From Tomocerus qinae (Eukaryota; Arthropoda; Collembola; Entomobryomorpha; Tomoceridae), in NCBI GenBank assembly GCA_020055645.1, contig CM034546.1, positions 37,696,001 to 37,760,000 of the forward strand: a stretch of DNA of 64,000 bases, read 5' to 3'. The translations under genes were made by a program, and so were the position numbers. Below are positions 29,195-59,940 of the stretch, piece by piece; position 1 is the first letter of the stretch, and every line of letters starts with the position of its first letter. Below the pieces are notes generated by a model. That model was not told the origin of the DNA, made no database searches, and was given only the letters and a program-made list of their open reading frames with translations.

Positions 29195-30228
29195 TACAAT
29201 CGACCCTCATTTAAACTATTATTGAAAACTGAATAACGACGTATAATTAAGAAAAATAATTGGATAAGTACATATAATATCATCGTAAAGACTTGATGAG
29301 GATGAAATTAACTTTTAAATATTTAATACATGTATAGAGAGAAAGAAGAGCTATTCAATAAAGCATTTGATACTAAGGGTTAGATATACCCACCAATGTT
29401 TATTTAGTATCTATTATTTAAGTTGACAATTATGGATTTAACTTCCCAATTTAAATCTATTTTATTCTGAAAAGCCTCAATCGGAATCCGTAATGGTAAT
29501 TGCAATTATTTCAACGCCGGCCTTTTAAAATCTATATCAGTATTGCAAAAAGGAATGAATTATTCACAATTGTAATTTTCCAATATTCGATTTGATGTGA
29601 TACTATTATATGATCTTGTTATAAAATGAAGTTGCACTATTGCAAAATGGCTCAAGAAAAGCATTAATATTTGGTACATAGGTAATTAGGTACACAGGTC
29701 CATTATGATAATCAGCCAATTGCTTTATTATTTGAACAGATGATTATGTCTAGGCGAGATTATAGCAACTAACAATGTTATCAACAGGCGTTGACATGAA
29801 TCTCTCTCCTTCTGCTTACAACGTGGCGACATTCATCGAACAAAAACAGTAGAATTTTGTCACACGCTTATGGTAATTTTTAACAGAAAGAAGGTTATGA
29901 GGTTTAATCGGTCATGCAGGATGGCCAATGATTATAATTATGTAATCATCATGAAAATTAAATATCTAATTTGGGCAGATTTTGCGTTTTGATAGGCACC
30001 CATTTATCCTATTTAAATTTAAGTGTAGGAGTGTAGTGAAGAGCTTAATTGTAGAGCATCTTAACTCACAATTTTCTTTAATCCAGTATTATGAAATAGT
30101 TAGCCTCCTCTTAAGTGCTCTATTAAGTGCCCTAAAGAAAAAAATCGGATATTGTTTACACGTTTAATAGAAGAGAGGCCGGGAAGTGTCGTGCGCGGCG
30201 GACTTAGTAATGAATCCCCCTACTTGAA
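29195..30228. repeat. Conserved 3' flank of receptor copy A
   Basis: Shares landmarks with the 3' flanks of copies B (31239-32420), C (36500-37265) and D (40057-40532 plus 46085-46670). Examples are the ACAATCGACCCTCATTTAAA block and, later, a CTCAAGAAAAGCATTAATAT block. These flanks show that the duplicated unit extends well beyond the coding exons. Confidence 0.7.
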
Positions 30229-31184
30229 TTATTGCGATGTGAGGAGCAACAATGTGAGTAAAGCGCTTGTCATGGCTTCGTAACAATCGATAAGATGTTT
30301 CTGCTTCACATACCCGAGAGTTCCATATCGAATCCCGTAAGGAAATAATGACAAAACGACTTTTCGTATTACCTTCTTCCTTAGTCTGGATCTTCTTACT
30401 TGTAGAATTAGTCTTGAGTTGCCTTCCAACAATTTGCCGGCCCCCAACATTATCATTGTGATTAGAATGTAACAGTTGAGAACCATAGAAACGAAAAAAC
30501 CAACCTCTGTATAAGTCAAGACTTTGTGGAACCGAATAATTAGAAGATTTGATACTGTAGCTACAGTGGTCATGACAAATATGACGACCGGCAGGAATAT
30601 TTTCTCACAACTGCAATTGTAAGCACTATTGAGAATTTGCAGCGTTTTGAATTCTTTTAATTTTCGTCCCAGGTGCATTTCTCTAATAAATAAATAAATT
30701 TTATGGCCAATTTCAAAATAAAGATTTTGACTTAGAAGTTTAAATTGTATGCTTACGTTAAAAGATTATTTTGCCAATTTACACTGTAAAGAAGGTAAAT
30801 GACATAATATGCCATGAAAATAACCAGCTTGAAACTATTTTCATGATGATATCCAGAACAGATAGTATAATGTAAGGCAGGAAATGCATTGTGGAATAAG
30901 TTTGTCCAGGAAATTTTGCAGCATTTGATTTTGACTGACCGATACTAGTATTAAGACCAGACAGGGAATGTACGGAATTAGAACAAGAAATCCATAGGAT
31001 ATTATTTTTTCCAACTTTGATTTTCCCTTCTCAGTAATCCTTAAAAGATCTAAAACATTTTTATTGTTTATAGTTTTTGTTATAGACAATTATGAGTTAA
31101 TTATAAAATGGACAATATTTTCTTACTTCTGGTACGTTGACTTATTTTTGACATCTGGTTGATGACATCTGGTTGATGACGGGA
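30229..31184 (-). pseudogene. Receptor-like copy A, 5'-truncated and frameshifted
   Basis: Exon 3 (30229-30682) is intact and encodes the two last long spans and the C-terminus (SLFPYGIRYGTLGYVKQKH). Exon 2 (30757-31049) is broken: relative to copies B and E it has a 2-base insertion after KLIP and a 7-base deletion in the later span, so the frame stops early. Exon 1 is almost absent; only its last few codons remain (VINQM), in a small tandem duplication, followed by a TAATAATAAG-rich tract. The expected full protein is about 400 aa. A translated product is very unlikely. Confidence 0.75.
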
Positions 31185-31238
31185 ACAGTCGGAATAATCG
31201 ATAATAATAAGTAATAATATCAAGATACTGAATGTCTT

Positions 31239-32422
31239 TACAATCGACCCTCATTTAAACTATTATTGAAAACTGAACAACTACTTATAATGCCGAAAAA
31301 TAATTGGATAAGTGGACATAATATCATGTTACACATTTTATTTAAGGCAAATATAGACCAACATTAAATTAATTTTCAAATATTTAATGCACCCAGGCAA
31401 AGACGGGGTTATCCATTACATGACGTGATACTTAGGTATACTTACTGATGTTTAGTTAGTATCTATTTACGTTGACAATTAAGTATTTAACTGTCTATCT
31501 TAAATCTATTTTATTCTGCGAAGCCTCAACAGGAACCTGTAATTGTGATTGCAAAAACTGGTACCTCCGGTCTTACTAAATTCATATTAGAATTACTAGT
31601 AGGAATAAATTATTTAAACAAGCATTCTTCCAATATTAGATTTGATTGGATACAATTACGATTTTGTGATATGATATAACAATATAAAGTTGCACCATTG
31701 CAAAATAGCTTAAGAAAAGCATTAATATTTGGTTCAAGGGCGTATTTAAAGCGTGAGGTGGAAGTGTGCTTTAAGCAGTCCCTAAATATTTTGAAAACAC
31801 CCTAGACGTTATCGTATTTTCACCGTTTATTTCATATTTAGTCATTTTATTCCAAATTCGGAAAAAACATATTTTCGTTTTCATATGACACAATTGCATG
31901 AATCTTATTTTCGAGCGTTTCTAATCTGCTCGCGCATTTCCGAATCCTTTTTTAATTATATTGAAACTTAGGATCTGTGATTATCTTATATATGGTTACA
32001 AAATGGAAATGTACCTTAGCAATTGGCCACTTCTGAAATGAGGTTTGACATTCGCTGATATAACCAACACAATTGAATTTTGTCACACGCTTATTGTAAT
32101 TTTTTAAGCCGAAAGGGTATGGGGTTTCAAATTTTTATGTCAACCAGGATGACCCAATATTATACATATGAAAACATCATTAAATTTAAATGTCTAATTT
32201 GAGAAGAGTTTGTGTTTTGATACGCACAAATTCATCCAATTTAAATTTAACTACAAAGGCCATAAGTTTATTTAGTCCAGTATTTTGAAATCAGCAGACT
32301 TACTGTTAAGTTCTAAGAGCTCCAAGGTGCTCTAATAACAAAAATCTTGTAACCACGTTGAATGTTATAGTTGGGAAGTGTCGCGCGCGCGGTGGACGTA
32401 ATAATGTATCCCCCTACTTGAA
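31239..32422. repeat. Conserved 3' flank of receptor copy B
   Basis: Same block order as the flank of copy A; includes ACAATCGACCCTCATTTAAA at the start. No gene inside. Confidence 0.65.
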
Positions 32423-33780
32423 TTATCGCGAATTGAGGAGCAAAAATGTGAGTAAAGCATTTGTCATGGCTTCGTAACAATCAAAAAGATGTTTCGGCTT
32501 CACATACCTGAGAGTTCCATATCGAATCCCGAAAGGAAGTAATGATAATACGACTTTTCGTGTTACCTTCTGCTTTAGTCTGGATCTTCTCACTTGTAGA
32601 ATTAGCCTTGAGTTGCCATCCAACAATTTCCCCGCACCCAACATTATCATTGTGATTAGAATGTAACTGTCAAGAACCATAGACATGAAGAAACCAATTT
32701 CTATATTGGTCAAGACTTTGTGGAACCGAATAACAAGAAGATTTGATATCGTGGCTGCTGTGGTCATGACAAATATGAACATCGGAAGGTAAATTTTCTC
32801 ACAACTGTTATTGTAAGCGCCATTGAGAATTTGCAGCGTCCTGAATTCCTTTATTTTTTGTTCGAACGGCTTTTCTCTGATAAATAATTAAATTTTATGA
32901 CTAATTTCAAAATAAAGGTTTAGACTTAGTTTAAATTATCTACTTACCCTAACAAATTATTTTGCCAGCGGACACTGTAAAGAAGGTAGATGATATTGTA
33001 TAATACCGCCAAAACAAATAGCCAGCTTGAAACTATTTTTATGATGACATCCAGAACAGATATGATAATGTAAGGCAGGATGTGCATTGGAATAAGTTTG
33101 TCCAGGGAATTCTGCAGCAGTTGATTCTGACTGACCGACACTAGTATATTAAGATCAGGCAAGGAATGTATGGAATTAGTGCAAGAAATCCATAGGATAT
33201 TATTTTTTCCAACTTTGATTTTCCCTTTTCTGCAATCCCCGAAAGACCTAGAGTATTTTTAAAAAATTTTATAGATTTTTTTCGGGTCAATTATGATGGA
33301 GTATTAATGCAATGGAAAATGTTTGCTTACTCCTGGCACAATGACTTATTTTTGATATCTGGTTGATGACATACACCATTTCGTGCTTTCGATCGGACAG
33401 GCTTCTGCATGTTACATGCATGTCCAAGTATGACATATAACCCACATGAAGGACAACACATTTTCGTAGATATTTGACTGACCACTTTTGATGTCTTGAA
33501 CCAAATATGCAATTTGGTAGATGAAGCCAATTAACGTAAAGACAATCAACATCTTAAGAGTGTATTTTCGTTTTAACGATTTTGATAATTTTATCCTTTG
33601 GTTTATTCCATCCCATGAATAGGGAAGGATGCACAAACTGTGGAATAACCTCACATAAATTCCAAATACTTGCAAGCCGATGTCTTCACCAGCAAGATGT
33701 AATTTCTTTATTTTGCCTTTCATCTTTGAAATATTACATCGTAATTTTTTGAAAGAGTTGTACATGTTTTCTGAATCCAA
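32423..33780 (-). pseudogene. Receptor-like copy B, two TA insertions
   Basis: All three exons and their splice sites are present: exon 1 33331-33780 (starts MDSENMYNSFKK), exon 2 32948-33247, exon 3 32423-32876. The frame breaks twice. In exon 1 a TA insertion near 33435-33439 leads to a stop after WVICHTWTCM, whereas the other copies continue through WVMSYM and a CRNLSNRKH block. In exon 2 another TA insertion near 33144-33150 disrupts the span after IPCLI. Exon 3 is open and like the others. Because only two dinucleotides separate it from an open gene, it is either a young pseudogene or contains assembly errors. Confidence 0.75.
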
Positions 33781-33789
33781 TTAACGCTT

Positions 33790-34381
33790 TAAAAAACCAC
33801 TGATAATGGCACATTTATATGAAATATGAATTTTAAAATTTTAACCATTATACATGTACAATACACAATATTGTTTGTATGTCAAATCTTATTTCGTTAG
33901 TATGTCAAATTAAACTCGGTACGCCAGGTTTATCTTCAAAATAATGTATATAATGTAAGCTTGTAATGTTGTAATCATTGCGGATATAACTTAATATGTT
34001 GAGACAATAATATGGTAAGAGGTTTACGGTAAATTGGAATAATTGCGTAAATACTTTCCTTCTGGATAATCAAATAAACAATTCAATATCAATGTCATTA
34101 TAGAAACGGCTACATACTATTAGGGCTTTCAAACTTAGAACACATTTCAAATCTTAAGTTTAGGGTCTGATTTATTTAAATATTATACTTGCCATTTAGG
34201 TATACCTGGTAACCCTGTAACAAGACCTAAAAATTGATTAAAATATGGAGTATAATTTTCAAAAGCAGTATCAGAACAGTCCACCTTCTGCTTTGGAACA
34301 GTTCACCTCTATCATTAGAACAGTCCATCTTTGTCGTTGGAACAAGTCACCTTTTCCTTTTTAGACCAGTTTCTCAGGTCA
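33790..34381. other. 5' flank of copy B, nothing recognised
   Basis: Sequence here is related to 38710-39040 upstream of copy C and to the flank of copy D, so it belongs to the duplicated unit. No regulatory element is confidently placed. Confidence 0.4.
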
Positions 34382-34389
34382 GTTCACCG

Positions 34390-35201
34390 CAAGGTATCGA
34401 AAAACCCTCGACCCCGAGTCTTTTGGGTTTGGGTTTAAGGCTTTTTTAATATAATTATAGGCATAAATACAAGCCTATACTATAGCATATAGATAACTAC
34501 AGCTGACAATAACAACAACCTTATAATCCTAAAACTATTATTTACGTCTATAAAAATAAAAATTAAGATATAAAAATTCAATCTTGAACATGTTTTAGCA
34601 CAGTTAACAAGCAGTATTTTTGGAGAGCACCTATATTAGTTATTATACTGTTTGATAACAACTAGTGAAAAACTATCTATGCATTATTATATTTTACTGA
34701 TTAAATTGACTTTAAGAAATTCATTCGTTAATGTAGAGCTTTAATTGTAAAGCAGTACAATAATGAATATTGTAAGTGATTAACTAAAATTCAGCATAAT
34801 TAATGTTTCTACTTATGTACCCCAAAGCATTCATTCGCGATTTGTAAGTAAAAGTTAGTTATATATACAACAATATGCATTTATCTTCACAGCGATTACA
34901 ATATACATAAAACAAATATATAGACATTACGATACAATAACTATTGCAAGTATTAAAGTATAAAAGCTATATATTTTGTTTCCACCTGACTGTATATTTG
35001 TTTACATTTTTTTAATACAAGTATGACAAAATTAGTATGTTTTGCTTATATACAAGATGGAGCTTTAGTGCACATAATATTATTGTATGCATGTGTTGTA
35101 AAACAAACCCAATAAACCGTAAACCAATGTTTTTTAAGTGAAGCGGGTGGGTTTTTTGCAAAAGAAACCCTAACGTATAAAAAACCCGCCCCACAACCCT
35201 G
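34390..35201. mobile_element. hAT-type element, family shared with 62942-63782, copy 1
   Basis: 812 bp, starting CAAGGTATCGAAAAACCC and ending CCCACAACCCTG-like. The flanks are GTTCACCG (34382-34389) and GTTCACGT (35202-35209), an 8-bp duplication with two later changes. It aligns along its whole length with 62942-63782. It is non-coding apart from short frames. Confidence 0.8.
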
Positions 35202-37267: not shown

Positions 37268-38694
37268 TTATCGCGATGTAAGAAGCAAAAGTGTTAGTAA
37301 ACCGTTTGTCATGGCTTCATAACAATCGGCAAGATGTTTCTGCCTCACATACCTGAGAGTTCCATATCGAATCCCGTAAGGAAGTAATGATAAAACGACT
37401 TTTCGTGTTACCTTCTGCTTTAGTCTGGATCTTCTTACTTGTAGCTTGTAGGATTAGCCTTGAGTTGCCATCCAACAATTTCCCTGCCCCTAACATCATC
37501 ATTGTGATTAGAATGCAACTGTTGAGAACCATAGACATGAAGAAACCAACTTCTATCATAGTCAAGACTTTGTGGAACCGAAATATAAGAAAATTTGATA
37601 CTGTTGCTGCAAAAGTCATGACAAATATGAAGATCGGCAGGAATATTTTCTCACAACTGCAATTGTAAGCACTATTGAGAATTTGCAGCATCCTGAATTC
37701 CATTAATTTTTCTTCCAGGGGCATTTCTCTGATAAATAATTACATTTTATGTCTAATTTCAAATTAAAAGTTTAGACTTATTGAAAATTGTATGCTCACC
37801 CTAACAGATTGTTTTGCCAGCGGATACTGTAAAGAAGATAGATGACATTATAGAATACCGCAAAAACAAATAGCCAGCTTGAAACTATTTTTATGATGAT
37901 ATCCAGAACAGATATGATGATGTAAGGAATGATGTGCATTGAAAAATGTTTGTCCAGGTAATTTTGCATCAATTGATTTTGACTTATTGCCACTAGTAAT
38001 AAAATCAGGCTGGGTATGTACGGAATAAATGCAAGGAATACATAGGATATTATTTTTTCCAATTTTGATTTCAATTCCACAATCCCTGATAGATCTAAAA
38101 TATTAAAGTAGAACAATATTTAAAGTTTTTTTAATTGCAGCTAATTGGTTATTAATACATAGGAGAATATATTCATACTTTTGGTACGCTGACATATTTT
38201 TGACAGCTGGTTGATGACATACACCATTTGGTGCTTCCGATTTGACCAGATTCCTGCATGTTGAGTACATTTCCATATAAGACATAACCCACATGAAGGA
38301 CAATACATTTTCGTAGATCTTTGATTGACCATTTTTGATATCTTGAACCAAATATGCAATTTGGTAAATGAAACCAATTAAGGTCGACATAATTAATATC
38401 TTAAGCGGATATTTCCATTTAGGTTAGCCTTTGGTTCAATCCATCCCATGAATAGGGAAGGATGCCCAAACTGTGAAATAAACTCACATAAATTCCAAAT
38501 ACTTGCAAACAGATGTTTTCATCAGTAAGATTTAAGACGTCGTTCTTTATTTTCGCAAATTTTAAAAATAGAAGATTTAATTTCAACCTTTCGAATGATT
38601 TCTGCATGTCTTCAGCAAGAATTGATTTCTTTACTTTGCCTTTCATAATCTTTGAAAACTTACATTGTAATTTGGGCATGTTTTCTGAATCCAA
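37268..38694 (-). pseudogene. Receptor-like copy C, three small indels
   Basis: Exon 1 38179-38694 (starts MDSENMPKLQCK), exon 2 37800-38094 (open), exon 3 37268-37728. Exon 1 lacks 14 bases after NQRL compared with copy E and has one extra G in the CRNL block. Exon 3 has a 7-base tandem duplication (CTTGTAG twice near 37439-37452) that shifts the frame after RLILQ. After the breaks the original frame is still recognisable to the end, including the usual stop context. Splice sites are intact. A degenerating pseudogene of the family. Confidence 0.8.
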
Positions 38695-40056: not shown

Positions 40057-40532
40057 ACAATCAACCCTCATTTAAATTATTATTGATTGATAATTGGATA
40101 ACCAGTAATAACGACTTATAATGCTGTAAAATAATTGGATAAGTGCACATAATATCGTCTTACACATTTTATCTGAAGTAAATAAAGACCAAAATTAAAT
40201 TAATTTTCGAATTTAAATACCCCCAGACAAAGACAGGGCAAGCTTATTCAATATAGGAGGCTTGATACTTAAATATATTCCTACGGGGACGTTAACTAGT
40301 GTCTATTTAAGTGGAAAATAATATATTTAACTTCCCATTTTAAATCTATTTTAATCTGCAAGACCTCAACCGGAACCCCTAATAGTATTTGAAATAATTG
40401 CAACGCCGACCTTACAAAACCAGTATTGCAGGTGGGAATGAATTTTTACAAATACAATCTTCCAATATTGGATTTGGTTAGATACAATTACCATTTGTGG
40501 TGAGATAACAGTACAAAACTAGAACAACAAAA
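40057..40532. repeat. 3' flank of receptor copy D, left part
   Basis: Follows the conserved flank seen after copies A-C, then is interrupted at 40532 by the foldback element and resumes at 46075. Confidence 0.7.
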
Positions 40533-40540
40533 GGGTACTA

Positions 40541-41380
40541 GAAATTAGCTTACGCCGAATAGAATATAGCACACGCCGAAGTGGAAAATAGCCGAAGCCG
40601 AAGTAAAATTTTAGCCCACGCCGAATAGAAGTTAGCCTACACCGATGCATCTGCGCCGAAGCCGAAGGAAAATAGCCGAAGCCGAAGTGGAAAATAGCAT
40701 AGCATAAGTTGGTTGAAATTGGCCAACGCCGAATGGAAAATAGCCGACGCCGAAGCAAAAGTGAAAAGTTGTCGGCGCCGAAGTAAAAATATACCTGCCG
40801 ACGCCGAATAGAACACAGCCGACGCCGAAGTGGAAAATAGCCGAAGCCGAAGTGGAATTTAGCCGAAGCCGAATAGAAATTAGCCTACGCCGACGTGGAA
40901 ATTAGCCGAAACCGACGTGGAAAATTACCGAAGCCTAAGTGGAAATTGGCATACGCCGATGCCGAAGCATAAATTGCCGAAGTTGTGGTGTAAATTTCAC
41001 CGCCGAAGCCGAATAGAACACAGCCGACGCCGAAGTGGAAAATAGCCGAAGCCGACGTGGAAGTCAGCCGTAGCCGAATAGAAATTAGCCGACGCCGCCG
41101 TGGAAATTGGCCGAAGCCGAAGTGGAAAATCGCCGAAGCGTAAGTGGAAATTGGCATACGCCGATGCCGAAGCATAAATTGCAGAAGTTGGGGCGTAAAT
41201 GTCACCGCCGACGGCGAATAGAACACAGCCGACGCCGAAGTGGAAAATAGCCGAAGCCGAAGTGGAATTTAGCCGAAGCCGAATAGAAATTAGCCGACGC
41301 CGACGTGGAAATTAGCCGAAGCCGAAGTGGAAAATCACCGAAGCCGAAGTGGAAATCAGCCGAAGCCGAAATAATATATC
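40541..41380. repeat. GC-rich GCCGAAGCCGAAG short-repeat zone, left arm
   Basis: Degenerate iterations of about 20-24 bases built on GCCGAAGCCGAAGTGGAAAA and variants (GCCGACGCCG, GCCGAATAGAA). Much richer in GC than the surrounding DNA. Open frames here translate to FHFGFGYFP-like low-complexity peptides and are not genes. Confidence 0.9.
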
Positions 41381-41592
41381 TATGATCCTACAAAATCATA
41401 TGTAATGTCAGTATTTATGATGTCAGGATGGTATTTTAGCATATATATGCATGTAGTATGTATGTATGCATGGATGTATATATATATAGTATATATGTAT
41501 GCATGGTTGGATATATGTAGTATGTATGTATGCATGGATGAATGTATAATATGAATGTATGCATGGATGTATATATATAGTATGTATGTATG
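41381..41592. repeat. 31-bp satellite zone of left arm, reverse orientation
   Basis: Contains the reverse complement of the 31-bp unit seen at 42655-43692 (TATGTATGCATGGATGTATA). A second, direct copy of the stretch 41395-41525 follows at about 41937-42070. Confidence 0.85.
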
Positions 41593-41750
41593 CACCAAAC
41601 GAAAATTGGATATAGGCTTATTCGTCCACCAAACAAAAAATGGATATAGGCTTATTCGTCCACCAAACAAAAAATGGATATAGGCTTATTCGTCCACCAA
41701 TCTGAAAGTGGATAGAGGCTTTTTCGATCCTTAAGGGACGATATGTTATA
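41593..41750. repeat. 34-bp tandem repeat and CCTTAAGGGACGATAT end
   Basis: CACCAAAC recurs at 41593, 41627 and 41661 (34-base period) with GGATATAGGCTTATTCG in each unit. It ends in CCTTAAGGGACGATATG. A reversed, related copy lies at 62378-62500, and the end resembles the small element at 27368-27486. Confidence 0.8.
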
Positions 41751-42220
41751 TTATAGATAATTTTTACTGAAATCAAAAAAAATTGTTTAGAGCACATTCT
41801 TTCCATTTTTGATAAATTTTTATAAAAAATTTTTTGTCATTTTTGGTAAACTTTTATGAAAAATTTTTGCCATTTTTTGGTAAATTTTCGTGTAAATTTT
41901 TTGCGATTTTAAATAAATAAAATTCCGACGTATGGTCATATGTAATGTCAGTATTTATGTTGTCAGGATGGTATTTTAGCATATATATGCATGTAGTATG
42001 TATGTATGCATGGATGTATATATATATAGTATATATGTATGCATGGTTGGATATATGTAGTATTCATGTATTCATGGTTAGATATATGTAGTATGCATGT
42101 ATTCATGGTTAGATATATGTAGTATTCATGTATGCATGGTTAGATATATGTAGTATGCATGTATGTATATATATAGCATGTATTATGCATGGATGTATGC
42201 GTAATATGTATGTATGCATG
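41751..42220. repeat. Insertion remnant and second copy of arm sequence
   Basis: 41751-41935 ends in AAAATTCCGACGTA, resembling the right end of the element at 1262-2079. 41937-42110 is a direct repeat of 41397-41525, followed by degenerate satellite variants with GGTTAGATATATGTAGTAT. Confidence 0.6.
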
Positions 42221-42259
42221 GTTAGGTTAGGTTGGGTTAGGTTAGGTTAGGTTAGGTTA
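42221..42259 (+). repeat. Interstitial (TTAGG)n telomere-type tract
   Basis: About eight GTTAG units with one GTTGG variant. TTAGG is the telomere repeat of most arthropods. It lies inside the foldback element, so it is not a chromosome end. Confidence 0.85.
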
Positions 42260-42661
42260 TTAGCATTGATTTGCCTATCTTGGTGACAATATGACTATCT
42301 TTCCTTACCCTGTCTGCAGTGTGCAGATTGCTCTCTTGGTTAGGTGTACACTACGAGTTTACCTAGTGATATACTGGACTGAGGAGCACATGCGAAGGGA
42401 TGCGGGAGGTTGCGATGACTGTCACACCTAATGTGGTCAGCTCACCTAACCTTGCCACCTAAGCACACATAGGTAGAGTACGGGACTGTGTAGGGCTGTA
42501 CCACATAATGGTTCAGTACCCCTCACCAAAGTCTCTTCGTGTAAGTCTGTACACTAAGTAAAGTTGTCCGGGAGTCACTGCAAGTAAGCCACCCCAGGCT
42601 TGAGCGGTAGCATAGCTCTACTACTATAGTAGATGCTGTGCTCTCCCCCTAACCCACACAC
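42260..42661 (+). mobile_element. Dispersed repeat ending in CTCTCCCCCTAACCCACA
   Basis: About 400 bp, more GC-rich than its surroundings, ending in a CA/CATA-rich tail. The last ~170 bp are found again, reversed, at 59944-60136, again with a CA-type tail. Directly after a TTAGG tract and with a microsatellite tail, it could be the 3' end of a non-LTR retroelement or a SINE; no coding frame decides this. Confidence 0.6.
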
Positions 42662-43692
42662 ATACATACATACTATATATATACATCCATGCATACATAC
42701 ATACTATATATATACATCCATGCATACATACATACTATATATATACATCCATGCATACATACATACTATATATATACATCCATGCATACATACATACTAA
42801 ACATACATCCATGCATACATACATACTATATATATCTAACGATGCATACATACATATTAAACATACATCCATGCATACATACATACTACATATATACATC
42901 CATGCATACATACATACTACATATATACATCCATGCATACATACATACTACATATATACATCCATGCATACATACATACTATATATATACATCCATGCAT
43001 ACATACATACTATATATATACATCCATGCATACATACATACTATATATATACATCCATGCATACATACATACTATATATATACATCCATGCATACATACA
43101 TACTATATATATACATCCATGCATACATACATACTATATATATACATCCATGCATACATTCATATTATTCATTCATCCATGCATACATACATACTATATA
43201 TATACATCCATGCATACATACATACTATATATATACATCCATGCATACATACATACTATATATATACATCCATGCATACATACATACTATATATATACAT
43301 CCATGCATACATACATACTATATATATACATCCATGCATACATACATACTATATATATACATCCATGCATACATACATACTATATATATACATCCATGCA
43401 TACATACATACTATATATATACATCCATGCATACATACATACTATATATATACATCCATGCATACATACATACTATATATATACATCCATGCATACATAC
43501 ATACTATATATATACATCCATGCATACATACATACTATATATATACATCCATGCATACATACATACTATATATATACATCCATGCATACATACATACTAT
43601 ATATATACATCCATGCATACATACATACTATATATATACATCCATGCATACATACATACTATATATATACATCCATGCATACATACATACTA
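42655..43692 (+). repeat. 31-bp satellite, ~33 copies
   Basis: Highly uniform unit CATCCATGCATACATACATA plus CTATATATATA (31 bases). Since 31 is not a multiple of three and the unit lacks stops on this strand, all three frames stay open, creating long spurious frames. A few units vary (ACATATAT, AAACATAC, TCATATTATTC). Confidence 0.95.
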
Positions 43693-44593
43693 CAGTATGT
43701 ATCAAAAGTGGGTATACATAGGAGTTTATGGGTATACATTGGAATTTAGTATCCATAGCACTTTCATTGTTAGTTCACTGCTCAATATGCAATTTTTACC
43801 AGCCAGATTTCCCTTTTATTATTTCATTGTTCGTCTCTCTTTCCTTCTTTTCGCAATAAATAATGCGTTGCATCAATCTGAAGAACTCAATATGGATAAA
43901 CTGTCAATAAGTGAGCGAATTGAAATTGTAAAGATGCGGACAACAACGTCGTTACGAAAGGTGGCTGATAGAAGATATCCTGCAAAGACAGTTAGCATCA
44001 AAACAGTAGCAGTTACCACAGCTCGGTTTGATAGGACTGGTTCCGTCAAAACCTTACCAAAAGTAGGAAGACCCACATCTGCTACAAACTCTGTCATGTC
44101 CTATTTTGCACAAACACCGTCCCGATGACCCTGGCCGTCGTATTCTCTTCTGTTCGTGGGTTCAGAATTCGATAACAGCTAATCAGAATTTCACAAAAAC
44201 AATCTTGTTTAGCGACGATGCAATATTCCACTTAAATGGTACTGTGAATCAACAGACTTGTCGGTATTGGTCCAAAACCAACCCCGGTGAATGACTTGCT
44301 GAAGATGCAAGGCTCTCCGAAAACTAAGGGAGTGGATCCTCACAACATTTGGTTCCAGCAAGATGGAACTCCCCCACATTGGCAGTTTATCCATACTGAG
44401 TTCTTCAGATTGAAGCAACGCATTATTTATTGCGAAAAGAAGGAAAGAGAGACGAACAATGAAATAATAAAAGGGAAATCTGGCTGGTAAAAATTGCATA
44501 TTGAGCTGTGAACTAGCAATGAAAGTGCTATGGATACTAAATTCCTATGTATACCCATAAACTCCTATGTATACCCACTTTTGATACATGCTG
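43693..44593 (+). mobile_element. Deleted Tc1/mariner-like transposon with ~215-bp inverted ends
   Basis: 901 bp inside the satellite. Ends CAG(T/C)ATGTATCAAAAGTGG are inverted copies and both sides have TA (43691-43692, 44594-44595). The inverted ends extend about 215 bp each (43693-43908 and 44379-44593) and include the transposase start codon (ATG at 43892). Plus-strand remains: an N-terminal helix-turn-helix piece (MDKLSISERIEIVKM, later TGSVKTLPKVGRP), then in another frame ILFSDDAIFHLNGTVNQ, containing a first catalytic Asp-like segment, then IWFQQDGTPPHWQF, resembling the second catalytic Asp segment. The last catalytic residue region is replaced by the right inverted end. Non-functional as transposase. 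Confidence 0.85.
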
Positions 44594-44595
44594 TA

Positions 44596-45170
44596 TATAT
44601 ATACATCCATGCATACATACATACTATATATATACACCCATGCATACATACATACTATATATATACATCCTACATCCATGCATACATACATACTATATAT
44701 ATACACCCATGCATACATACATACTATATATATACATCCATGCATACATACATACTACATATATACATCCATGCATACATACATACTATATATATACATC
44801 CATGCATACATACATACTACATATATACATCCATGCATACATACATACTATATATATACATCCATGCATACATACATACTATATGTATACATCCATGCAT
44901 ACATACATACTATATATATACATCCATGATACATACTATATATATACATCCATGCATACATACATACTATATATATACATCCATGCATACATTCATATTA
45001 TACATTCATCCATGCATACATACATACTATATATATACATCCATGCATACATTCATATTATACATTCATCCATGCATACATACATACTACATATATCCAA
45101 CCATGCATACATATATACTATATATATATACATCCATGCATACATACATACTACATGCATATATATGCTA
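44596..45170 (+). repeat. 31-bp satellite continued, ~18 copies
   Basis: Same unit as 42655-43692, with some variants (ACACCCATGC, a shortened CATCCATGATACATAC unit near 44930 and TTCATATTATACATTC units). The Tc1-like element evidently inserted into a once continuous array. Confidence 0.9.
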
Positions 45171-45224
45171 AAATACCATCCTGACAACATAAATACTGAC
45201 ATTACATATGATTTTGTAGGATCA

Positions 45225-46060
45225 TAGATATATTTTTTCGGCTTCGGCTGATTTCCACTTCGGCTTCGGTGATTTTCCACTTCGGCTTCGGCTAATTTCC
45301 ACGTCGGCGTCGGCTAATTTCTATTCGGCTTCGGCTAAATTCCACTTCGGCTTCGGCTATTTTCCACTTCGGCGTCGGCTGTGTTCTATTCGCCGTCGGC
45401 GGTGACATTTACGCCCCAACTTCTGCAATTTATGCTTCGGCATCGGCGTATGCCAATTTCCACTTAGGCTTCGGCGATTTTCCACTTCGGCTTCGGCCAA
45501 TTTCCACGTCGGCGTCGGCTAATTTCTATTCGGCTATGGCTGACTTCCACGTCGGCTTCGGCTATTTTCCACTTCGGCGTCGGCTGTGTTCTATTCGGCT
45601 TCGGCGGTGAAATTGACACCACAACTTCGGCAATTTATGCTTCGGCATCGGCGTATGCCAATTTCCACTTAGGCTTCGGTAATTTTCCACGTCGGTTTCG
45701 GCTAATTTCCACGTCGGCGTAGGCTAATTTCTATTCGGCTTCGGCTAAATTCCACTTCGGCTTCGGCTATTTTCCACTTCGGCGTCGGCTGTGTTCTATT
45801 CGGCGTCGGCAGGTATAATTTTACTTCGGCGCCGACAACTTTTCACTTTTGCTTCGGCGTCGGCTATTTTCCATTCGGCGTTGGCCAATTTCAACCAACT
45901 TATGCTATGCTATTTTCCACTTCGGCTTCGGCTATTTTCCTTCGGCTTCGGCGCAGATGCATCGGTGTAGGCTAACTTCTATTCGGCGTGGGCTAAAATT
46001 TTACTTCGGCTTCGGCTATTTTCCACTTCGGCGTGTGCTATATTCTATTCGGCGTAAGCT
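45225..46060. repeat. GC-rich short-repeat zone, right arm
   Basis: Reverse complement of 40541-41380: iterations of CTTCGGCTTCGGC with TTTTCCA spacers. Matches the left arm nearly base for base by eye. Confidence 0.9.
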
Positions 46061-46084
46061 AATTTCTAGTACCCAACAACAAAA

Positions 46085-46673: not shown

Positions 46674-48014
46674 TCAGAGAGATGTGAGGAGCAACAATGT
46701 GACTAAAGCGTTTGTCATGGCTTCATAACAATCGGCAAGATGTTTCTGCTTCACATATTTGAGAATTCCATAGCGAATCCCGTAAGGAGGCAATGCAACA
46801 ACAGCCTTTCTTGTAACCTTCTGCTTCAGTCTAGATCTTCTCACTTGTAGGATTATCTTTGAGTTGTCATCGAACAATTTCCCTGCCCCCAACATTATCA
46901 TTGTGATTAAAATGTAACAGTTGAGAACCACAGACATGAAGAAACCAACTTCTATAATTGTCAAGACTTTGTGGAACCGAAATACAAGAAGATTTAATAC
47001 TGTTGCTAAAGATATCATTATAAAGACGGAAGTCGGCAGGAATATTTTCTCACAGCTGGAATTGTAGGCAGTATTCAGAATTTGAAGCGTCCTGAAATTT
47101 TTTAGTTTTTGTTCCAGTGGCATTTCTCTATATTTAAGTTATTTTATGGTTTATTTTAAGAGAATAAATTTAATTAATGAGGGTTAGATATAGTTACCTT
47201 AACAGATTTTGCCAGCTTACACCATAAAGAAGGTAGATAACATTATATAATGCCACCAAAACAAATAGCCAGCCTGAGATTATTTTCATGATGATATCCA
47301 GGACAGCAATGATAATGCACAGCAGGAAGTGCATTGGGAAAAGTTTGCCCAAAGAATTTTGCAGCATTTGTTTTTGACTAACCGACGCTACTATTAAGAT
47401 CAGACAAGGTAAGTATGGAATTAGTGCAAGGAATCCGTAGGATATTATTTTTTCCAATTTTGATTTCCTCTTTTCTGGAATCCCCAAGAGATCTACAATA
47501 TTGTAAAAAATGTTTATAGTTGTTATTATGTTTAAGTATGACTCATTTACACAATGGAAAATTTTTCCTTACTTCTTGTACGTTGAATTATTTTTGATAT
47601 CTGGTTGATGACATACACCATTTCTTGCTTTCGATTGGACAGGGTTCGACATGTTACGTATGTTTCCAAATAACACATAACCCACACGAAACACAGCACA
47701 TTTTCGTTGATCGTTGATCGTTGACTAGTTTTGATATCTTGAACCAAATATGCAACTTGATAGATGAGGCCAATTAAAGTATAGACAATAAATGCCTTAA
47801 GACGGTATTTTCGTTTTAATGACTTTGACAATTTTAGCCTTTGGTTTAATCCATCCCATGAAAAGGAAAGGATGCCCAAACTGTGAAATAACTTCACATA
47901 AATTCCAAATACTTGCAAGCAGATGTTTTGATCGCCAAGATTTAATTTATCTACTTTGATAAATTTAATAATCTTTAGATTATTAAGTCCCCACCGTTTG
48001 AATGAATTTTTCAT
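46674..48014 (-). CDS. Multi-membrane-span receptor-like protein, copy D (only intact copy)
   Basis: Three exons on the minus strand: 47573-48014, 47198-47492, 46674-47127. Borders are GT-AG and phases fit, giving 396 aa without interruption. Hydrophobic segments near residues 33-52, 74-93, 105-122, 166-187, 204-236 (long, perhaps two), 270-292 and 297-325 suggest seven or eight spans, plus a hydrophobic C-terminal tail. A charged loop (VRRSRLKQKVTRK) precedes the conserved PPYGIRYGILKYVKQKH and DCYEAMTNALVTL. Size, span number, clustering and rapid pseudogene formation resemble arthropod gustatory receptors, but the family's TYhhhhhQF motif is absent, so this is only a suggestion. The chosen ATG (MKNSFKRW) aligns with an internal Met of copies C and F. 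Five damaged paralogues lie nearby. Confidence 0.8.
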
Positions 48015-49480
48015 GTCTTAAACTGTATATCTTAATAAAAATTATATAGATATAAATGGCCTCTTAATTTATTATTTAAAATTATTTTAATGGTTAACAA
48101 TTCGTTTTAACTCCCTTAAGGATGCAATACTGAGAATTGCGATTTTATATGATTGTGAATTTTATAATTTCAGCGTTGTTAATGTAATGGGTCCCATTTT
48201 ATTGTTGGTCAAATTAAACAAGCAGCTGCAACTATGTCCTCTAAATTATTGCTTACCTCCGTGCTGACATGAAATATACTGGGCACTAACTTATAATAAT
48301 AATCCTTGCGGATATACTTTGTATATTGATACAAACACAGTAGGTATGATAATACGCGTATTAAAATAATTGGGTAATACTTTCTTCATGGATATAATCA
48401 AACCAATGGATAAATATCATTATCATTATATTCCCTACAGTAATTATCGTTAGCTTGACTAGTACGACGTTCGATTAGTAGATCTCCACTTTGACAAAAA
48501 CTTTTTGGCAAAACAACAAAACAACTTTTAGTTGAGAACGGCAACTTTATATGAAATGTGAATTTTAAAACTTTAAATGTGTAATGTTTGTGTTTGGTTC
48601 TATTTTGGTTGCAGGTTTTAAACTGGGTACGCTTGCTTTGTCATTTGTCTTCCAAATAATTCATTACCTCCGCGCGGACGTGGAATATATATTTAATATC
48701 TTACGATGTGGCAATCATTGCGAATGCGAATCCTTCATAGGTATAATGAGGCAATAATATGGTAATAGGTATCACACATTAAAGTAATTGCGTATATATT
48801 TTCTTCCTAGATAGTCAAACAAATAGTTGAATGTCAATATCATTAATCATTATAGAAGAAACGGCTGCATAATATTAGGGCTTCCAAATTAGAAATATAT
48901 TTCAATCTTCATGGTTAATCCCGGATTTTAAGAAAAAATTATTAATTTGTTTAAAATTGTATACTCCTCTGCATAAATGTCTTACAAAGGGAATTAATAA
49001 CTGCATTATAATCGCAAGCATTTTATATCCAAAGGTAAAATGGAATTTAATTACTAAATATTATTGTTCAAATGTCTAGCAATTATCTTAATGGATAGGA
49101 CTGTAAATAAAGGATAAGAGACTAGTGCAATAATTACTACGACAATTACTTTACCCTGTCGAGGTTCAATAATATTCGTATTTATTACGATTTTTATGTT
49201 TGCTATACTTAATAGTATAATGTTTGCCGTTAAGCCGAAAATGGTTCAGGTATCCGCAAAGCCGTTTCTTGAAAAGCAATGACAATGAATTACAGACTTG
49301 TGATATGCGATATGCCAAGTATGCCAATAAAACTTAATTAATAATTACGAATGCATTACTGTAGTTAATATTCTTTGCAGTGCAATTTTTAGTTGTTTAT
49401 TCCACTTTAAGTTACATCACATCGCTATACTATTTAAATTGCAATTTCATAGTAATAGCCGTTAAAAAGATAATTGCAAT
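48015..49480. other. 5' flank of copy D and spacer
   Basis: 48112-48128 carries the CCCTTAAGGATGCAA end of the small repeat family (see 27368-27486). 48560-48960 resembles upstream flanks of copies B and C. Nothing else is recognised. Confidence 0.45.
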
Positions 49481-56931: not shown

Positions 56932-58284
56932 TTATCGAGATGTGAGGAGCAGAAATGTGACGAGAGTATTTGTCATGCCTTCGTAACAATCAGCTAGATG
57001 TTTTTGCTTCACATATTTGAGAGTTCCATAGCGAATCCCGTAAGGAAGCAAAGCAAGAACAACTTTTTTTGTTACCTTCTCCTTTTCTTTGGATCTTCTT
57101 AGCTGTAGAATTAGCTTTGCACTGTCATCGAACAATTTACCAGCTCCGAACATTATTATGGTGAGTGAGAAATATGTATCGGCAACAGTGGAGACCAAGA
57201 AAGCGATTTCTAAAAATGTTAGGCTTTTGTGGAAACGAATTACAAGAAGTTTTAGCACTGTGCCTACAGAGGTCATGACAAATACGAAGATCGGCAGGTA
57301 GATTCTCTCACAGCTTGAATTGTAGGCACTGTTAAGAATTTGCAGCATTCTGTATTCCTTTATTTTTTGTTGCAGAGGTATTTCTCTGATAAAAAATTTA
57401 ACATGTATAGTTGATTTCAAGAAAAAATTTTAGACTTAGTTTAAATTATGTGCTCACCCTAACAGATTATTTTTCCAGCGGATACTGTAAAGAAGATAGA
57501 TGACATTGTAGAATACCGCAAAAACAAATAACCAGCTTGAAACTATTTTTATGATGACGTCCAGAACAGATAGGATAATATAAGGAATGATATGCATAGG
57601 AAAATGTTTGTCAAGGTAATTTGGCATCAGTTGATTTTGACTGATTGCCACCAGTAATAAAATCAGGCTGGGTATATACGGAATAAATGCAAGGAATACA
57701 TAGGATATAATTTTTTCCAATTTTGATTTCAATTCCACAGTCCCTGATAAATCTAAAATATTTAAGTATAACAATATTAAAAGTTATTTTAATTACAGCT
57801 AATTGGTTAGTTATTAATAGATAGGAGAATATATTTATACTTTTGGTACGCTGACATAGTTCCGACAGTTGGTTGACGACATACACCATTTCGTGCTTCC
57901 GATTTGACAGATTCCTGCAAGTTGAGTACATATCCATATAAGACATAACCCACATGAAGGACAATACATTTTCGTAGATCTTCGATTGACCATTTTTGAT
58001 ATCTTGAACCAAATATGCAATTTGGTAGATGAAGCCAATTAACGTGCAGGCAATCAATATTTTAAGAGGGTATTTCCATTTAGGCGACTTTGACAGTTTT
58101 AGCCTTTGGTTCAATCTATCCCATGAATAGGGAAGGATTCCCAAACTGTGAAATAAACTCACATAAATTCCAAATACTTGCAAGCAGATGTTTTCATTAC
58201 CAAGATTTAAGACGTCTTTCTTTATTTTCGCAAGGTTAAAATTTTTGGAAGATGATATTGCAACTTTTCGAATGACTTCTGCAT
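56932..58284 (-). pseudogene. Receptor-like copy E, N-terminal frameshift
   Basis: Exons 57841-58284, 57458-57752, 56932-57385. Exons 2 and 3 are open and spliced correctly, and exon 1 is open from VLNLGNENICLQVF onwards. The expected start (MQKSFEKLQ, ATG at 58284) is out of frame by two bases relative to copy C: the AT-rich stretch between CTTCC and GCGAAAATAAAG is two bases longer, and a stop follows. No other in-frame Met precedes the first span. Unless an untested start or assembly error is involved, translation would fail. Exon 3 retains LLPYGIRYGTLKYVKQKH and the usual C-terminus. Confidence 0.7.
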
Positions 58285-58289
58285 GACTT

Positions 58290-59940
58290 TCTAAATTTAT
58301 TTTAATATGCTAAAGCTCATAAACTGTCTTATTAAAAATTATGTATTTTCACAATTGTTAATGGATTTTAAACTCGTTTTAATAGCTTTCGACAAGTGAG
58401 TACTGAGAATATAATAGTATTTGAATATAAAACGTTAATATTGAAAATTTATCAGTGATAATGATTCTATTTGGTTTTATTTTATTTTATTTTAGAGATT
58501 TTAGAGAAAATGAAACAGCGTATTCTTATCCTAAATATTCTTTTTAATATACTCTTCCCTAGCTGGCTTGAAATAACGGAAAGTTCTTTAACCATTGAAT
58601 AAACTAAGTATATATTAAGGCACTATGGTAATGGGTTCAATAATAAAATAATTACGTAATAGTTTCTTCGTGGGTGATCAAATAAATAGGAATACCATAA
58701 TTACCATTAAAACCATAAAACCATCTAATTAGCCATCAAAAACTAAAATAATAGTATAATTAGGAGATCATAGTCGAAATAGAATATTTGTATGGGGTAT
58801 TTAGAGCACGGGTACAATTTGTATGGTGTGGAAAATCGTGTGACATTGTATGGAATTTAGCTGACAATGTATGATATGTACTAGTAAGAGTAAAGAGTAT
58901 TAATATTAAATAAAGAGGATAAGTTAAGGTAAAGCGATCTATTGGGATAGGAAGCAAAGGTAAAAATACAACTGCAACTACAAAGGTCTCCAATTTTAAA
59001 AACACAAGCACATTATATAGCACATTACATTTTATCTCGAGATTACAAATAAAAGGCGACAAAGAGGCTATATCAGATGCAGCTAGACCCATACATATTA
59101 TTAACTTGATCTTAAGTATCGGCGTCATTTACTTGATCGTAGAAATTGCCTTATTTTCCTTGCTTACCCTAAATTAAGTTAATTATTTACATTTATTATT
59201 AGTGCGTGAAATGACAAAATATTACAATTATTTTGTTTTTCTGAATTTTCAAAAACAAAAACAAAATTTATGTCAACATATAATACATACAAACAAAAAC
59301 GCAGATAGTACTGATCAAATAAAGAGGTTAATGCTTAGGTAAACCTGCCGATGTTTATTTAGTGTGTCGATGTATGGGCAATAATACATTTATCTTTCCA
59401 TCTATAATTTTATTCTGTAAAGCCGTATCCCTTAATGGTAAATGCAATGCTGGTCCTACACAATCCATATAAGTTTTGATACTGGAAATGAATTATATAC
59501 AAACCAATTTTCCATTATTACATTGAATTGGATATATAATTATGATTTTTTGATATGAGATAACAAAGGGAAACAATTCAAAACAGCTCAAGAATAGCAT
59601 TGTTATTTTGTAAGCTTTCCCGGAATTGACGAATTAATTTAATAAGGTTATATATTGGAAACCCCGGAAATGGAAAACGTTTAAAGGGCAACATGAAAAT
59701 CCACGACGAGTGACTCTTAGCCAAGCCTCTTTGATTTTTCATAATCTGTCTTATTGGCCGAGAAATTACCTTACAACGTTTTCTCGCATTCGTAAACAGA
59801 TGCCAAAAGTTAATGTTTAGTTTTAACCGAGTAATGATTCTTCCGAAATGTGAAAAAATTTACAAACTTCTTAGCTAAACCTTAAGATTAAGTTATTATT
59901 TGCTTAGAATGGCGCAGAATGGAGAGAGGAGCAATGTGTG
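58290..59940. other. Spacer between copies E and F
   Basis: 59270-59600 resembles the conserved 3' flank of the family (for copy F). A 122-codon hydrophobic minus frame at 58760-59128 has no recognisable homologue or splice support. Otherwise featureless. Confidence 0.4.

Follow-up and report, generated by a model that had tools for sequence, protein, structure and literature searches.

Foldback elements with satellite-rich arms have precedents, and the kind of element that is treated here is thus already known. The FB elements of Drosophila have long arms of short tandem repeats, a 9-bp target duplication and heterogeneous loops. Among other families, Tm1 of root-knot nematodes is a Mutator/Foldback family with composite inverted ends of variable length that contain short tandem units, with 9-bp duplications and with many non-autonomous copies (PMC3169594). 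Muta1 of Aedes aegypti, termed a type 2 Foldback element, and other Mutator-like elements (MULEs) of this species have long inverted ends, subterminal tandem repeats and derivatives with variable interiors (PMC5225508), and Tetris of Drosophila virilis is an apparently non-autonomous foldback element with three-domain tandem-repeat arms, 8-10 bp duplications, a variable middle and satellite growth inside the element (PMC4079207). A family of this kind is present in the springtail Tomocerus qinae, where one copy lies in a 64,000-bp stretch of contig CM034546.1 (G000:C1:37696001-37760000; hereafter “the window”). We consider it probable that this is a non-autonomous foldback family that is mobilized in trans by a Mutator-like transposase, and that arm copying and satellite growth take place inside its copies.

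The copy in the window spans positions 40533-46074 (5,542 bp) and is flanked by direct copies of the 10-bp sequence AACAACAAAA (40523-40532 and 46075-46084). Its arms are terminal inverted repeats of 1,062 bp (left arm 40533-41594, plus strand; right arm 45013-46074, minus strand) that align without a gap at 99.34% identity, and they begin with the family-conserved motif GGGTACTAGAAATTAGC (40533-40549, plus strand; inverted partner 46058-46074, minus strand). This motif has two perfect matches in the window, which are the two ends of the element, and with up to three mismatches there are three matches, as compared to a mean of 0.13 in shuffled sequences. Each arm is composite. A GC-rich zone of about 22-bp GCCGAAG units (with periods of 20-22, 65 and other lengths) that form a higher-order repeat of 205 bp (40554-41370, plus strand; in the right arm 45237-46068, minus strand) is followed by a single-copy inner stretch (41371-41441, plus strand), part of which is repeated at 41936-41959 and inverted at 45188-45211, and by a TATG-rich satellite zone of a 31-bp class (41442-41594, plus strand). 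The GC content of the outer 838 bp (40533-41370) is 50%, that of the window 32%. The original prediction had described the borders with the AACAACAAAA duplication and the terminal motif, near-identical arms of about 1.06 kb, and the two layers of these arms, and all of this holds at the positions given here.

Other copies exist genome-wide. In the genome sequence that was searched (334 Mb, 115 contigs), the left arm, used as a DNA query, had at least 46 matches when 40 of 158 candidates were scored, many of them as plus/minus pairs a few kb apart. With two mismatches allowed, the 24-base end has at least 100 listed matches, of which 64 are perfect, 22 deviate at one position and 14 at two, while the reversed pattern, used as control, gave none. 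Among the matches listed, on which the pair and single-end counts rest and of which the 64 perfect ones stay below the listed total, 36 pairs face each other at a distance of no more than 70 kb, and 28 ends remain single. The pairs are 351 to 63,180 bp long, and as they were located via the shared border, this search sees those relatives that carry the same border. When the 17-base end was followed by a base other than T, 76 matches were returned (control 2), 74 of which actually have T at this position and hence one mismatch. The remaining two are one listed family end and one single site, so that nothing rises above the control. One end, C1:39597785, turned up solely in the 17-base search.

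The flanks of the 36 pairs carry an exact 9-bp duplication in 24 cases, an exact 10-bp duplication in three cases (the window copy, L048 and L063/064), 9 bp with one mismatch in four cases, and none in five cases. All exact flank matches of at least 5 bp are 9 or 10 bp long (27 of 36 pairs). As a control, each left flank was set against the right flanks of all other copies (1,260 combinations), which gave one exact match in the range of 8-11 bp (8 bp long) and no 9-bp match with one or no mismatch. Since a duplication, exact or with one mismatch, abuts the shared border in 31 of the 36 pairs, each of these pairs represents one insertion event. The exact 10-bp cases are not 9-bp duplications lengthened by chance, because shifted copies match only in homopolymers, and the cut therefore is mostly 9 and sometimes 10 bp wide, with 9 bp as the rule of the family. 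The 10-bp duplication of the original prediction thus holds for the window copy and does not extend to the family, and the difference from Drosophila FB that had been seen in it disappears: with its mostly 9-bp duplications, the family comes nearer to FB, which it also resembles, going by the general description of FB, in its arms and varied loops. The foldback family that had been suspected, with its composite arms, is real and no chance palindrome, as is seen from the many copies with target duplications abutting the same border, and because exact duplications persist in 27 of the 36 pairs, it has been mobile recently enough to keep them. Structurally, the elements have long, internally repetitive inverted arms, constant ends and a near-constant duplication size, as is characteristic of the foldback class. 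It is extremely improbable that the arms are merely satellite or segmental palindromes that were spread by recombination without any transposase. The arms and loops are indeed rich in tandem repeats, and inverted arrays of one of these, a 146-bp satellite, also occur outside the listed copies, but the constant border and the duplications in 31 of 36 pairs, as compared to one match in 1,260 mispaired flanks, argue against such an origin.

Two further candidates were rejected. If copies had swapped their flanks through inversions, matching flank pairs would be left, and except for the one 8-bp match there are none. The P superfamily, Galileo included, generates 7-bp target duplications, and the exact flank matches found here are 9 or 10 bp only. 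Like the family, Galileo has arms of foldback type with tandem repeats inside them, and in Galileo these repeats contain additional binding sites of the transposase (PMC3573991, PMC3688188). It differs in belonging to the P superfamily, whose 7-bp duplication the family lacks.

The relationship of the arms was analyzed in 20 copies that were read whole, out of the 36 pairs. The initial 620 bp of their 40 arms were placed in a tree, in which 15 of the 20 copies have their own left and right arm as sisters. Six of the 20 arm pairs show no mismatch in the aligned 620 bp (gaps uncounted), in 13 pairs neither arm has a closer match among the arms of other copies, and the best match of an arm to another copy's arm is 98.9%. 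As a separate descent of left and right arms would group left arms with left arms, the arms have been made alike within most copies, presumably by copying of one arm from the other. The remaining copies are a mixed group, and in L032, L037 and L039 the arm-pair identity is below 76%. At the other extreme, L031 consists nearly entirely of arm and forms a single palindrome of about 3.9 kb.

The same 20 copies demonstrate how much the contents of the element vary. GC-rich arm units of 21-22 bp are found in all 20, and the 31-bp satellite in 19 (it is absent from L036). Altogether there are twelve repeat groups, two of them family-wide and ten restricted to one to three copies each. The restricted groups have unit lengths of 34, 146, 120/240, 21/32/42/53, 20/50, 122/124, again 34, 40, and twice 23 bp with different sequences; the groups were split by BLAST of their consensus units and some may be distantly akin, and some comprise few unit copies (two in the 122/124-bp group). 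Tandem DNA makes up 34% of the interiors (23,110 of 68,208 bp in 19 of the 20 copies, the shortest being omitted), a figure that is in part due to arm repeat from long-armed copies and to which L038 and L039 contribute nothing; in the window outside the element, tandem DNA makes up 4.8% (2,781 of 58,200 bp). When the loops were compared in 100-base bins, after subtraction of the arms and the 31-bp satellite, most bins recurred in few or none of the remaining 19 copies, and some were common to three to six copies. A copy of 13.5 kb that lacks a target duplication contains LINE-like (long interspersed nuclear element) frames, two of which have endonuclease domains.

Which transposase could move such elements? 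A Mutator kinship is likely, though not proven. MULEs generate target duplications of 8-11 bp (PMC6446971), and the 9-10 bp of the family fall into this range. Resident MULEs of the same genome, recognized by the transposase domain PF10551 (59 genome hits), have 21-22 bp arrays in seven of the ten loci analyzed, belonging to five families (L051, L052, L054, L055, L057, L059 and L060), and the 22-bp units of L051, L055 and L059 are alike. Of eight loci with the domain PF20700, which marks further Mutator-like proteins that are abundant in the genome (at least 121 hits, with 114 of 245 candidates scored, some of them in long open frames, L095-L102), L101 has a 21-22 bp array in a piece that is homologous to L059, and L098 has two copies of a 20-bp unit. 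The third point is a shared habitat. C1 outside the interval 87-124 Mb, which is 31% of the genome, harbors 32 of the 39 foldback loci with a perfect end, 40 of the 59 PF10551 hits and 23 of the 121 PF20700 hits. The corresponding numbers are 0 of 39, 1 of 59 and 14 of 121 for C1:87-124 Mb, and 1 of 39, 4 of 59 and 34 of 121 for C2. In the window itself, a 22-bp array (GAACAGTCCACCTTCTGCTTTG, four copies, 34274-34397) looks like the remnant end of a MULE of the L055/L060 type; it is the sole array of 20-23 bp with a score of at least 50 in the window outside the foldback element.

Several observations weigh against this reading. Seven MULE frames of the same genome were combined into a profile, which also recovered L057, L059, L060 and a piece in L101; in the 20 fully read copies it detected no frame of MULE type, and no PF10551 or PF20700 hit is enclosed by any of the 36 pairs of ends. 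Within 20 kb on the inner side of the 28 single ends and of one further end, there is one such hit, a PF20700 piece that contains a stop and lies 15.2 kb from the end C3:49616034. An autonomous copy was thus not found with the 24-base ends, the two sets of domain hits and the 36 pairs, and a partner with fewer end bases in common may exist. Foldback ends and GCCGAAG units have no match in the ten PF10551 loci, L053 and L058 have no 21-22 bp array, and L056 has 2.2 copies of an AG-rich unit. In L055 and L057, both ends with exact 8-bp duplications are present, and the termini differ from GGGTACTAG; in L060, an exact duplication is missing. That foldback and MULE 22-bp units have a sequence in common was examined in 15 comparisons and rejected (fractions of 0.45-1.0 of the shuffles), and the foldback unit is unlike all of the MULE units. 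The Phantom type of MULE combines a FLYWCH finger with subterminal repeats; the array period fits in seven of ten loci and the unit sequence does not, and as the FLYWCH finger is present in L056, the only locus tested for it, which is without a clear array, a Phantom type of the array-bearing MULEs would be conjectural. The C1 interval was picked after the data had been seen, and that both kinds of loci crowd there may be a property of the region and not of the enzyme. Finally, the five pairs without a duplication (L037, L045, L040/41, L065/066 and L077/078, the 13.5-kb copy being among them) deviate from the family rule and may have recombined or decayed.

An enzyme of the Rehavkus or FB/NOF type, likewise with a 9-bp cut but invisible to the PF10551 profile, could move the family instead, and would agree with the lack of PF10551 hits between the 36 paired ends. 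Rehavkus elements combine 9-bp duplications with a minisatellite (PMC6446971), and in Rehavkus-1_TC, which is 9.5 kb long, the inverted termini contain a tandem repeat of 164 bp (PMC10218199). Both the duplication and a minisatellite near or in the inverted ends are also seen in the T. qinae family. Rehavkus encodes a transposase with a PHD finger (PMC6446971, PMC10218199), and none was found in the T. qinae copies that were read, though no search with a Rehavkus sequence was made. As it is the resident PF10551 MULEs that share the array period and the habitat with the foldback family, this second type of enzyme appears unlikely to us, and the Mutator-like transposase is preferred.

Mechanistically, a Mutator-type transposase supplied in trans would bind the about 22-bp subterminal units, which correspond to about two helical turns, pair the two ends, excise the element and reinsert it with a mostly 9-bp staggered cut. 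Anything between the arms would travel along, and the loops may be largely private to each copy because their content is carried in this way. During replication or repair, the inverted arms could fold back on themselves, and one arm could be copied onto the other, whereby arms would be homogenized and lengthened. Tandem units in arm and loop could slip and grow, and the elements would thereby become a nursery of satellites, including an inverted 146-bp array of about 59 kb in one copy. More tentatively, it is possible, albeit with less confidence than we have in the mobilization in trans, that the inverted arms of this family repeatedly turn adjoining DNA into tandem and inverted arrays, and that they have bred about a dozen unrelated repeats of this genome in this way, one of which grew to the palindromic array of about 59 kb in a single insertion.

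This extreme copy (C4:11508852-11572031, 63 kb) has an exact 9-bp duplication, GAGTTTAGC, and was sampled by five 1-kb pieces and 110-bp end pieces. Both end-proximal samples contain the arm, the 31-bp zone and a stretch common to L042 and L044 that looks like the end of a LINE. The 146-bp satellite is present in all three inner samples, in plus orientation at 11.522 Mb and in minus orientation at 11.540 and 11.555 Mb, and if the unsampled parts are alike, the copy probably holds an inverted 146-bp array of about 59 kb and about 400 units. An assembly error is possible in so long an array. The identity at lag 146 is 95-97% in two samples, as compared to 85-87% in L042 and L044, and 78% in the third, which we attribute to indels. 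Smaller copies with the same inverted array are L042, L044 and C5:18886902-18894622, each with an exact 9-bp duplication.

It could be that the large copy arose by capture, i.e. that an existing 146-bp array became enclosed by two foldback ends and was moved as a block. FB elements move large segments, and a satellite search with 10 of 51 candidates scored found 146-bp arrays at no fewer than seven places outside the listed copies, 89-96% identical to the query, so that the satellite may have entered the element from elsewhere. Three of these outside arrays (C3:17548889-17553758, C1:118831662-118833770 and C5:19464844-19469750) are inverted in the opposite sense, i.e. minus then plus. The GAGTTTAGC duplication marks one insertion of the outer ends, and the array may have become long before or after it. 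Both inner edges of the 63-kb copy, however, carry the very stretch that lies ahead of the array in L042 and L044, which are smaller copies, the orientation of the array changes as it does in these two (plus then minus), C5:18886902-18894622 is a further small copy of this kind, and growth from a small copy takes fewer steps. Capture is therefore rather unlikely, and we favor growth of the array inside a smaller copy.

In comparison to the described families, several differences are apparent. Tm1 includes copies with a Phantom-type transposase; its units are mostly 14 bp long, its 7-bp terminal motifs are asymmetric, and its arms are on average 93% alike (PMC3169594), whereas in T. qinae no transposase-bearing copy was found, the units are about 22 bp long, the ends are identical, and the arms often are identical as well. 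The MULEs of Aedes have 9-15 bp units, 8-9 bp duplications and, in two that are described, inverted ends of 145 and 151 bp, and the available text on them does not mention kilobase arms or satellites (PMC5225508). For Tetris, there are three structurally complete copies, one repeat of about 220 bp and arrays of up to 66 copies, in contrast to the 36 pairs, the twelve repeat groups and the one copy with an array of about 59 kb in T. qinae (PMC4079207). In their available parts, the texts on Tm1, Muta, Tetris and Rehavkus, together with literature listings that cover few subscription papers, describe no family that combines two satellite layers in the arms, arms that are identical over a kilobase, about ten further arrays found in single copies, and a 63-kb copy with a target duplication. 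Binding of such repeat units by the transposase is said to be untested for Foldback and Phantom elements (PMC3688188), and the resident MULEs with arrays of about 22-bp period permit such a test. The chief value of the family is that a single genome offers 36 pairs, 31 of which bear the mark of a single insertion, twelve repeat groups in the 20 copies read and arrays from few units to about 59 kb, and thus a natural series for how hairpin transposons breed satellites, which is testable by a comparison of alleles.

The loop of the window copy is composite, too. Next to the left arm lies a 34-bp tandem array (41593-41726, plus strand) whose repeat group was found in three of the 20 fully read copies. 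The inner arm is then repeated in part: the inner stretch and the 31-bp zone recur, in the orientation of the left arm, at 41936-42220 (plus strand), next to a 40-bp (TTAGG)n run (42220-42259, plus strand), TTAGG being the telomere unit in many arthropods. Two long arrays of the 31-bp satellite, both on the minus strand, then enclose a nested element: the first (42661-43692; 33.5 copies, 96% matches) is oriented as the right arm, and the outer part of the second (44594-45153; 18 copies) is a portion of the right arm. The nested element (43693-44593, plus strand) has inverted ends of about 225 bp, TA on both sides and the remnant of a broken frame, and we regard it as a non-autonomous element of the Tc1/mariner-like class; a 78-amino-acid stretch of it has no Pfam match.

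In the neighborhood of the element, multi-copy genes for membrane-like proteins are found at 30164-33780, 37317-37739, 46674-48017 and 56932-58309 of the window. The six frames tested gave no Pfam match, and they may perhaps encode gustatory receptors. Such genes also occur at L006 and L009, so that they adjoin the window copy and two other copies of the family.

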